Shown here piece by piece: positions 25,125-35,401 of a stretch of 64,000 nt of DNA. The DNA is from Loktanella sp. DSM 29012 (GTDB lineage Bacteria; Pseudomonadota; Alphaproteobacteria; Rhodobacterales; Rhodobacteraceae). Position 1 is the stretch's first letter. Each line of letters opens with the position of its first letter. Under the pieces are notes generated by a model. That model was not told where the DNA came from. It saw nothing but the letters and a program-made list of their open reading frames with translations, and searched no databases. The translations under genes and the position numbers were made by a program. The stretch spans positions 124,001 through 188,000 of the forward strand of contig NZ_FOEJ01000002.1 of NCBI RefSeq assembly GCF_900110705.1. The letters are read 5' to 3'.

Positions 25125-25278
25125 GCGGTGCCCCCTTCGATGCGGTCATGCGATACCGCGCGCACACTGGTCCCGGCGTGCCCAAGGTGCAAGTGCCCCG
25201 AAAACCCAAGCGTAAAGGATTTGTAACAGACCTAGAGTAACTTGCGCCTGCTGCATAGCAGCATTGACGAGACAGCTA

Positions 25279-25306
25279 TTGTGCAGGTGCAGCATAATCC
25301 TAGATA
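25279..25306 (+). promoter_or_regulatory. possible promoter of the DUF1127/hairpin RNA unit
   Basis: TTGTGC and TAGATA 16 bases apart, ending 50 bases before the DUF1127 ATG. In Rhodobacter sphaeroides the equivalent unit is driven by heat-shock sigma factors RpoHI/RpoHII; I cannot confirm a match to those consensus sequences here. A perfect GCTGC-ATA-GCAGC palindrome sits upstream at 25250-25262. Confidence 0.25.
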
Positions 25307-25356: not shown

Positions 25357-25566
25357 ATGGCTTACACAAACACGAACGTCGCGCCGTCCCTGACCCAGCG
25401 TTTCGCTGGTTTGCGCAAGCAGATCGCCGACGCCGCTGCAAAGCGCCGCGTCTATCGCAACACGGTAAACGAACTGTCCGCGCTGACCAACCGCGAACTG
25501 GCCGATCTGGGCATTTCCCGCTCGATGATCCGCAGCATCGCAACCGAAGCAGCCTACGGCAACTGA
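25357..25566 (+). CDS. ccaF1: DUF1127 small protein, CcaF1-like
   Basis: 69-aa basic protein. The DUF1127 core, rich in Arg and ending in the LSALTNRELADLGISRSMI pattern, covers residues 38-58. The start ATG 25357 gives the family length; the open frame extends upstream without support. In R. sphaeroides the equivalent gene sits directly before the CcsR small RNAs, is co-transcribed with them, and its product CcaF1 binds RNA and affects sRNA maturation. Here the first CCTCCTCCC hairpin begins 16 bases after the stop codon, so the same arrangement holds. The ortholog name is inferred from synteny and domain. Confidence 0.85.
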   Translation: MAYTNTNVAPSLTQRFAGLRKQIADAAAKRRVYRNTVNELSALTNRELADLGISRSMIRSIATEAAYGN

Positions 25567-25581
25567 ATTCCAATCGGGAAA

Positions 25582-25603
25582 GAACCAACCTCCTCCCTGG
25601 TTC
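25582..25603 (+). ncRNA. array hairpin 1
   Basis: GAACCA/TGGTTC, 6-bp perfect stem; loop A+CCTCCTCCC. Confidence 0.8.
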
Positions 25604-25613
25604 CGACCTGACA

Positions 25614-25650
25614 GCGCCGCCCGCCACCTCCTCCCTTAAGGTGGGCGCGC
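25614..25650 (+). ncRNA. array hairpin 2
   Basis: About 11 bp of GC-rich stem with one bulged C; loop A+CCTCCTCCC+TTAA. Confidence 0.8.
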
Positions 25651-25660
25651 ATAACACAAA

Positions 25661-25706
25661 GCGGCGGCCCTGACCGACCTCCTCCCCGTGTTGGGGTCGC
25701 CGTTTT
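25661..25706 (+). ncRNA. array hairpin 3, terminator-like
   Basis: GCGGCGGCCC pairs with GGGTCGCCG, followed by TTTT. The motif is in a large 22-base loop. The T-run makes it a possible internal terminator that would separate hairpins 1-3 from 4-11. Confidence 0.7.
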
Positions 25707-25720
25707 GAACAACAGAATAC

Positions 25721-25749
25721 GGGCGCTGCACCTCCTCCCGCGGTGGCCC
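25721..25749 (+). ncRNA. array hairpin 4
   Basis: GGGCGCTGC pairs with GCGGTGGCCC with one bulge; loop A+CCTCCTCCC. Its left arm is nearly the same as that of hairpin 8. Confidence 0.8.
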
Positions 25750-25754
25750 GGATG

Positions 25755-25796
25755 ACCCGGATAGATGGCTACCTCCTCCCAGCCGGATATTTGGGT
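25755..25796 (+). ncRNA. array hairpin 5
   Basis: Inner stem GGCT/AGCC and outer stem ACCC/GGGT with an internal loop; loop A+CCTCCTCCC. Confidence 0.7.
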
Positions 25797-25804
25797 AAAG
25801 ACCT

Positions 25805-25840
25805 GGGTCCGCCGCTCTCCTCCTCCCTGCGGTCGGACCC
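25805..25840 (+). ncRNA. array hairpin 6
   Basis: GGGTCC/GGACCC outer stem and CCGC/GCGG inner stem. The loop TCT+CCTCCTCCC... is the only one lacking the A before the motif. Confidence 0.8.
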
Positions 25841-25849
25841 ATGCAGACA

Positions 25850-25883
25850 GCGGTGGTGGTCACCTCCTCCCGGCCATCACCGC
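25850..25883 (+). ncRNA. array hairpin 7
   Basis: Twelve-bp stem GCGGTGGTGGTC with GGCCATCACCGC (two G-U pairs); loop A+CCTCCTCCC. Confidence 0.85.
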
Positions 25884-25899
25884 ACCCTGAATTTGCATA

Positions 25900-25930
25900 C
25901 GGACGCTGCACCTCCTCCCGCGGCAGTCCG
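25900..25930 (+). ncRNA. array hairpin 8
   Basis: CGGACGCTGC pairs with GCGGCAGTCCG with one bulged A; loop A+CCTCCTCCC. The sequence around it repeats that of hairpin 4, pointing to duplication of a four-hairpin block (4-7 and 8-11). Confidence 0.85.
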
Positions 25931-25933
25931 CAT

Positions 25934-25970
25934 CGTCGGAACCCTCTACCTCCTCCCGGAGGGCCCGACG
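25934..25970 (+). ncRNA. array hairpin 9
   Basis: CGTCGG/CCGACG outer and CCCTC/GAGGG inner stems; the motif is in the loop. Confidence 0.85.
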
Positions 25971-25973
25971 CCG

Positions 25974-26006
25974 GCGCAAGCCCGACCTCCTCCCCGAGGT
26001 TTGCGC
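25974..26006 (+). ncRNA. array hairpin 10
   Basis: GCGCAAGCCCG pairs with CGAGGTTTGCGC with one bulge; loop A+CCTCCTCCC. Confidence 0.85.
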
Positions 26007-26009
26007 TCA

Positions 26010-26060
26010 CAAATGGAAAGGCGATGCGCACCTCCTCCCGCGCGTCGCCTTTTTCATTTG
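26010..26060 (+). terminator. array hairpin 11, terminal terminator with CCTCCTCCC loop
   Basis: Thirteen-bp stem AAAGGCGATGCGC/GCGCGTCGCCTTT with the motif in its loop, followed by TT, and an outer CAAATG/CATTTG pair. It ends the array 15 bases before the convergent lrp-like gene and may serve both strands. Confidence 0.85.
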
Positions 26061-35232: not shown

Positions 35233-35307
35233 GCGGGCGTAGCTCAGGGGTAGAGCATAACCTTGCCAAGGTTAGGGTCGGGCGTTCGAATCGCCTCGCC
35301 CGCTCCA
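35233..35307 (+). tRNA. tRNA-Gly (GCC), copy 1
   Basis: 75 bases with an encoded CCA end. Acceptor stem GCGGGCG/CGCCCGC, anticodon loop TTGCCAA (anticodon GCC), TTCGAAT T-loop. Confidence 0.97.
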
Positions 35308-35326: not shown

Positions 35327-35401
35327 GCGGGCGTAGCTCAGGGGTAGAGCATAACCTTGCCAAGGTTAGGGTCGGGCGTTCGAATCGCCTCGCCCGCTCC
35401 A
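35327..35401 (+). tRNA. tRNA-Gly (GCC), copy 2
   Basis: Identical in sequence to the first copy, 19 bases after it, with an encoded CCA end. The two are likely one transcript. Confidence 0.97.

Follow-up and report, generated by a model that had tools for sequence, protein, structure and literature searches.

What is a chain of eleven RNA hairpins, each presenting the same anti-Shine–Dalgarno (aSD) motif, doing directly behind a DUF1127 gene? Our answer, read from sequence, is that the 64,000-nt stretch of DNA analysed here (the window), from a marine bacterium, most likely makes a chain of hairpins able to mask the sites at which ribosomes start on nutrient-uptake genes. The window holds 11 exact copies of CCTCCTCCC, all on the + strand and spanning 25589–26039 (starts at 25589, 25627, 25678, 25731, 25772, 25819, 25863, 25911, 25949, 25986, and 26031), against a mean of 0.51 and a maximum of 3 in 100 dinucleotide shuffles of the window. 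Spacing from motif to motif is 37–53 nt, and all 10 motif pairs of the whole genome that lie 25–50 nt apart fall inside the array. Directly 5′ of it is an open reading frame (25357–25566, + strand) for a small protein of 69 aa in the position of ccaF1, which matched PF06568 (DUF1127) with an E value of 1.8e-14; 22 nt separate its stop from the first motif. The eleven identical motifs, their spacing, and the DUF1127 linkage, all put forward in an earlier note on this DNA, were thus borne out.

For structural characterization, each motif was folded locally and without constraint in a 47-nt segment. In 11 of 11 cases the flanking arms paired with each other and left the motif in the loop, extending to every hairpin what the earlier note had claimed for nearly all of them. 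The 494-nt region as a whole folded with z = −10.0, and none of 100 shuffles folded equally well; the eleven-hairpin picture nevertheless rests on the local folding, because alternative pairings replace hairpin 1 and the greater part of hairpin 9 in the global fold. Own arms paired with a mean of −20.1 kcal/mol and 13.2 enclosing pairs, as against −8.8 kcal/mol and 8.2 pairs when arms were swapped between hairpins (110 combinations), and own arms likewise beat swapped arms in 58 of 64 arrays (514 hairpins). Hairpin 11, together with the T-run at 26050–26054 (TTTTT), probably serves as an intrinsic terminator as well. Among arrays of at least three hairpins, 60 of 69 have a T-run behind their final hairpin, compared with 15 of 418 internal hairpins; hairpin 11 was absent from a simple terminator scan, whose loop limit was 3–8 nt.

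The stems were then compared with those of close relatives, using ungapped pairwise comparisons in which pairs scored as broken include shifts. Against genome G005, 60 of 131 stem pairs were unchanged, 21 kept pairing despite changes on both sides, 22 kept pairing despite a change on one side, and 28 were broken; the corresponding counts against G006 were 101, 9, 16, and 19 of 145. In the near-identical G004, 143 stem pairs were unchanged and 2 had one-sided changes. Formal covariation counts cover hairpins 1 and 5, the alignment of hairpin 3 being gapped in stem and loop, and the shuffles behind them are inflated by the relatedness of the sequences. For hairpin 1, the inner five pairs across nine genomes have 97.7% of their cells paired, and the covariation score of 0.711 was reached by 0 of 500 shuffles; four of the five pairs had changes on both sides (equalled by 26 of 500), and the number of pair types was not above the shuffles (222 of 500). 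Hairpin 5 was 84.4% paired (2 of 500) with a score of 0.589 (0 of 500), and neither its double-changed pairs nor its pair types exceeded the shuffles (467 and 481 of 500). The earlier note had allowed that alignments of close relatives might show arms that do not covary. They do covary, and the better pairing of own than of swapped arms, together with the compensatory changes among relatives, supports the selection on loop presentation that it had suggested. A constant loop on freely evolving paired arms fits a presented seed.

Family membership was examined with Rfam. RF02344 (ar14) matched 25931–26055 (+ strand), covering hairpins 9–11, with 67.6 bits against a gathering threshold of 58.8. 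Sub-threshold matches at 25570–25705, 25714–25845, and 25799–25935 together cover hairpins 1–8, and all 4 ar14 matches of the whole genome at E ≤ 1 lie inside the array. Unpaired CCUCCUCCC in the hairpin loops (11 of 11 by local folding), variable paired stems, and the gathering-level Rfam score are features of the α-r14/cuckoo RNAs; the short DUF1127 gene directly 5′ and the intrinsic terminator at the end are those of CIN1/CcsR loci. The two-hairpin RNA unit of the latter was not found, the genus unit being four hairpins after three leaders. The array is a member of the known α-r14/cuckoo/CcsR kind with a lineage-specific four-hairpin unit, and the kinship to CcsR and cuckoo RNAs proposed earlier is supported.

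That unit became visible by comparison across the genus, not from the window alone. An array is present in all nine genus genomes (G000–G008, G000 being the window's own), with 11, 23, 14, 15, 11, 10, 11, 19, and 14 exact motifs, respectively, and hairpin totals of 11, 23, 15, 15, 11, 11, 11, 19, and 15, where the totals for G002, G005, and G008 each count one degenerate or truncated loop and the end hairpin of G002 was read by eye. All nine totals equal 3 + 4k, which, because genomes of one genus are not independent, is to be read as a consistent rule and not as nine separate trials. Arm self-similarity was best at lag 4 in 9 of 9 genomes. The permutations doing as well, of 1000, numbered 0 in G001, 3 in G002, 1 in G003, 29 in G005, 0 in G007, and 6 in G008; the signal was not significant in the window's own array (422), G004 (267), or G006 (183). 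The array of G004 matches the window's hairpin for hairpin, and the DUF1127 protein of Loktanella sp. 3ANDIMAR09 is identical to the window's.

Under this rule the odd count of eleven follows from three leaders plus two four-hairpin units (tetrads), all on the + strand. The leaders are hairpin 1 (25574–25611, loop motif 25589–25597), hairpin 2 (25614–25650, loop motif 25627–25635), and hairpin 3 (25659–25705, loop motif 25678–25686). Tetrad 1 comprises hairpins 4 (25720–25750, loop motif 25731–25739), 5 (25755–25796, loop motif 25772–25780), 6 (25804–25841, loop motif 25819–25827), and 7 (25850–25883, loop motif 25863–25871). Tetrad 2 comprises hairpins 8 (25900–25930, loop motif 25911–25919), 9 (25934–25970, loop motif 25949–25957), 10 (25973–26007, loop motif 25986–25994), and 11 (26012–26058, loop motif 26031–26039). 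Every hairpin was drawn from its local fold, hairpins 1 and 5 also from the covariation counts, and hairpins 4, 7, and 8 also from the genus comparison. Linkers preceding tetrads exceed those of the other three phases in length and A/U content (A/U 0.60 versus 0.36–0.52, spacing 47.9 versus 40.0–43.7); from the genus comparison and these statistics, the two in the window, at 25706–25719 and 25884–25899 (+ strand), are candidate processing sites.

Units of other sizes occur elsewhere in the family, with lag 2 in L056 and G373 and lag 3 in G172, G365, G279, and G057, and many family arrays had no significant period by lag permutation. In G365 (L136), the three-hairpin unit has an arm identity of 0.88 at lag 3, and each unit includes a single short spacing of 32 nt. 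The array of G172, another family member, reaches 26 hairpins. Among 80 named loci chosen by likeness of their DUF1127 protein, 75 have at least two hairpins behind the gene, with a median of 6 and a maximum of 16 by the hairpin detector; 8-mer counts run up to 27 and count some loops twice. A strict three-motif pattern was present in 117 of 394 family genomes and, among 385 genomes of the class (380 from other families), in the window's own genome only. We make no claim that the arrays are confined to this family, since the strictness of the pattern means that absence elsewhere is not established. That eleven is exceptional was rejected: the nine genus genomes have 11–23 hairpins and G172 has 26. 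The earlier note had taken copy number as a peculiarity, which did not hold; the number is indeed odd, as it said, and loses its strangeness under 3 + 4k. As to its suggestion that copy number and layout might be undescribed, the 3 + 4k rule is a new detail; constant CCUCCUCCC loops on variable stems had been described in 2011 (PMC3927594), and RSs0680a carries the aSD motif in each of its two stem-loops (PMC3927594). The RNA type itself is known, and what is new is growth by whole units, a likely switch, and likely targets.

The switch is suggested by the upstream region, which is conserved across the genus. The DUF1127 gene and the eleven aSD hairpins share one conserved candidate promoter, with a −35 element TTGTGC at 25279–25284 and, after a 16-nt spacer, a −10 element TAGATA at 25301–25306 (both + strand, the latter from the genus alignment); a simple σ70 scan suggests a different pair at 25269–25298. 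Ahead of these lies a candidate LysR-type operator, TGCATAGCAGCATTG, at 25252–25266 (+ strand). It shares 13 of 15 bases, in reverse orientation, with the published motif of the LysR-type regulator VtlR of Brucella, CAATGCAGCCATGCA (PMC12595884), leaving 2 mismatches to its reverse complement, and TTGTGCA begins 27 nt past its start. A VtlR-like box with at most 3 mismatches was found within 250 nt upstream in 72 of the 80 named loci, where 1.15 were expected from two-base block shuffles, and in the same orientation in 71 of the 72. Of 71 loci examined, 63 place TTGTGCA 27 or 28 nt from the start of the box, and 27 have TANNN[TA] at the −10 offset. A search of 864 kb of the window's genome, the window among it, turned up one further site with 2 mismatches or fewer to the VtlR motif.

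Reported regulons give this box a context. Targets activated by VtlR include AbcR2 and three DUF1127 genes in Brucella (PMC12595884) and abcR1 and a small protein in Agrobacterium (PMC7486931), and LsrB activates the α-r14 RNA NfeR1 in Sinorhizobium meliloti (PMC10746234). No literature tying a VtlR-like box to CcsR or cuckoo arrays was found among titles, opening parts of abstracts, and term counts; PMC12501420 names CcaF1 11 times and LsrB once, with no tie between them in the portion of that paper available.

A PhaR operator was also considered, as the box overlaps a palindrome at 25249–25263, CTGCATAGCAG, that also fits the PhaR site of Rhodobacter sphaeroides, CTGCNNNGCAG (PMC12542648). 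Of 80 loci, 54 have CTGCN2-4GCAG in the 330 nt upstream, where 1.35 would be expected. PhaR was ranked behind VtlR on three grounds: the VtlR-like box is longer and occurs in more loci (72 of 80); CTGCN3GCAG is common in the window's genome (164 sites against 87 for the reversed pattern); and a PhaR protein motif did not turn up in the part of the genome scanned for it (1.27 Mb, overlaps included). The resemblance of the promoter palindromes at 25249–25295 to the PhaR operator is recorded as a possible link to polyhydroxybutyrate metabolism.

Four further DUF1127 genes were found in the window's genome (L171–L174, on contigs 7, 9, 20, and 15 of G000). L171 and L172 have no good VtlR-like box (6 and 4 mismatches, respectively) and no CCTCCTCC within 900 nt downstream. 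Contig 13 of G003 holds an apparently orphan aSD locus (L118, about 1083–1186) of three hairpins, two of them with exact motifs and one with a shortened loop. Some 60 nt ahead of the first loop, at 1007–1021, inspection by eye found TGCATTGCTGCAATG, which differs from the box by 2 mismatches; a motif scan of 2.2 kb found no DUF1127 ORF. Elsewhere in the window, two adjacent tRNA genes (35233–35304 and 35327–35398) have equal Rfam scores and are perhaps a tandem duplicate.

Candidate targets were sought through complementarity to the loop, in which TCCTCCC pairs with GGGAGGA over 7 bp. The pattern GGGAGGA-N3-10-ATG has 49 sites in the genome versus 3 for the reversed pattern, and 46 were kept after three ORFs under 100 aa were dropped. 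Seventeen of the 46 encode periplasmic solute-binding proteins (ABC, TRAP, or TTT) and at least four encode membrane transport proteins (BPD_transp_1, DctQ, BCCT, and BenE), as judged from Pfam scans of 30 ORFs singly and of all 46 as an alignment, among the best 25 of 57 families. Two other seven-base Shine–Dalgarno sequences, which presumably fit the 16S tail at least as well as GGGAGGA does, were used as controls. AAAGGAG had 65 sites (reversed, 8), of which 60 entered, four copies of a repeated element and one further site being left out, and 40 were kept; AAGGAGG had 40 (reversed, 4), of which 38 were read and 24 kept. Four of the latter duplicate the first set, giving 60 control ORFs in total. 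No solute-binding protein was found among them (Fisher p 9e-8), as seen in the best 25 of 100 Pfam families, BLAST against the 17 solute-binding proteins, and 10 single scans, mostly of signal-like ORFs; membrane transport proteins were present (two BPD_transp_1, one SDF, CbiM, and a cation-efflux protein). Short ORFs removed 20 of 60 and 14 of 38 control sites versus 3 of 49 GGGAGGA sites, which means that false starts are commoner among the control patterns. In the 864 kb, 3 of 744 ORFs were solute-binding-like, meaning similar to the same 17 proteins, and all three have GGGAGG upstream; two are already in the GGGAGGA set, so only one is independent. Their longest 16S-tail match, 5.0 against 4.5 for other genes (p 0.13), is not clearly better.

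Taken together, the locus probably yields a LysR-controlled precursor of α-r14/CcsR-type small RNAs that block ribosome-binding sites and damp nutrient uptake, with the dose set by unit number. A LysR-type regulator would switch the DUF1127-hairpin operon. RNase E, acting with the DUF1127 protein as it reportedly does in R. sphaeroides (PMC10253847, PMC7866481, PMC8625941), would cut the transcript between units. The TCCTCCC loops would then pair with GGGAGGA Shine–Dalgarno sequences, many of which precede genes for periplasmic solute-binding proteins, and would, by analogy with NfeR1, block translation by occupying the ribosome-binding site. Unit number may set the dose; the control of dosage by copy number raised in the earlier note is plausible, and repeated units would fit such an effect. 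In R. sphaeroides, flhR, C1 metabolism, and pyruvate dehydrogenase have been reported as CcsR targets (PMC8307010, PMC8625941), none of them solute-binding, which speaks against the target class.

How far do other readings account for the same observations? The earlier note had proposed a sponge or ribosome mimic. In that reading an intact long RNA would sequester mRNAs that carry GGAGG, or a factor, and what counts would be the number of sites held together on a single molecule, not separate small RNAs. Such an RNA might look like this region, with its eleven identical sites, or like the array of a relative with up to 26 hairpins; the longer, A/U-richer linkers between units and the reported release of CcsR1–4 from their co-transcript by RNase E (PMC7866481, PMC8625941) argue against an intact molecule. 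NfeR1 lowers translation through three redundant aSD loops that act on the translation initiation region (PMC10746234), and we found no specific support for the sponge or mimic, which we regard as quite improbable. Slightly easier to entertain, and still improbable, are mostly passive tandem repeats whose copy number drifts by unequal crossing-over, leaving the extra hairpins redundant. Near-identical units in G001, G172, and G373 and the degenerate or truncated loops of G002, G005, and G008 have that character, against which stand the compensatory arm changes, the loops held constant across diverged hairpins, and the hairpins kept in 75 of 80 named loci.

The hairpins might instead serve the DUF1127 protein or its mRNA, as a 3′-UTR that binds, titrating the protein or stabilizing the message. 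CcaF1 is an RNA-binding protein with an effect on CcsR maturation (PMC10253847), and the hairpins accompany the gene in those 75 of 80 loci, a set chosen by DUF1127 likeness. Service to the DUF1127 gene is nonetheless very unlikely in view of the apparently orphan three-hairpin locus of G003, of a constant part that is the loop, an anti-Shine–Dalgarno, and not the stem, and of a gene class marked by Shine–Dalgarno sequences complementary to that loop. The target signature itself could have another origin, GGGAGGA being kept for another aSD small RNA, of the AbcR type, or reflecting general translation features. Against this, neither control sequence, each presumably at least as good a fit to the 16S tail, shows such an enrichment. 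In its favour, transporter mRNAs are targeted by AbcR small RNAs as well, by way of CU-rich aSD motifs (PMC7143759); we consider this origin of the signature somewhat unlikely.

Beyond the window, the ribosome-site-blocking array may belong to a tunable throttle on uptake across Rhodobacteraceae, a generalization we offer tentatively and would not yet rely on. A VtlR/LsrB-type regulator would drive DUF1127-hairpin operons, strength would evolve by whole small RNA units of 2, 3, or 4 hairpins depending on lineage, and solute-binding genes would keep a GGGAGGA Shine–Dalgarno sequence fitted to the small RNA loops rather than to the ribosome. If true, a cell could lower a large share of its nutrient scavenging in a single step; aSD small RNAs, DUF1127 proteins, and VtlR/LsrB-type regulators, usually studied apart, would be joined in one conserved switch; and small RNA dose would evolve by unit copy number in a widespread bacterial family. 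GGGAGGA would then give a testable target rule. Follow-up would best concentrate on the unit rule, the VtlR-like box, and the GGGAGGA target class.

Among known systems, ccaF1-CcsR1–4 of R. sphaeroides has the same order of DUF1127 gene, aSD hairpin RNAs, and Rho-independent terminator (PMC10253847). It has four two-hairpin RNAs, whereas the array here has three leader hairpins and four-hairpin units, and its promoter is reported to be RpoHI/RpoHII-dependent (PMC10253847); the candidate promoter here reads TTGTGC-N16-TAGATA. The VtlR/LsrB regulons of Brucella, Agrobacterium, and Sinorhizobium resemble the locus in the 15-bp box and in having aSD small RNAs and DUF1127 or other small proteins as reported direct targets. 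A VtlR-type box does appear in the candidate promoter here and differs from the Brucella motif at 2 of 15 bases. Two details count against assigning it simply to VtlR. The Agrobacterium consensus, GCAT-N3-TG-N3-T (PMC7486931), has a fixed T where the window's box has A, and the TGCA/GCAT half-sites of the window lie five nt apart versus six for the half-sites of the LsrB site at NfeR1 (PMC10746234). The cuckoo family, as described in work citing Reinkensmeier and Giegerich (2015), shares the CCUCCUCCC hairpins and, at the CIN1 locus, the association with a short DUF1127 gene. The α-r14 RNAs (NfeR1, RF02344) carry CCUCCUCCC in every loop on variable stems, as here; the rhizobial members have three hairpins per RNA and their own σ70 promoter, in contrast to a long array behind a DUF1127 gene. 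NfeR1 is activated by the LysR-type LsrB, and its predicted targets are mostly ABC transport mRNAs (PMC10746234), the two properties that are also proposed for the array described here.
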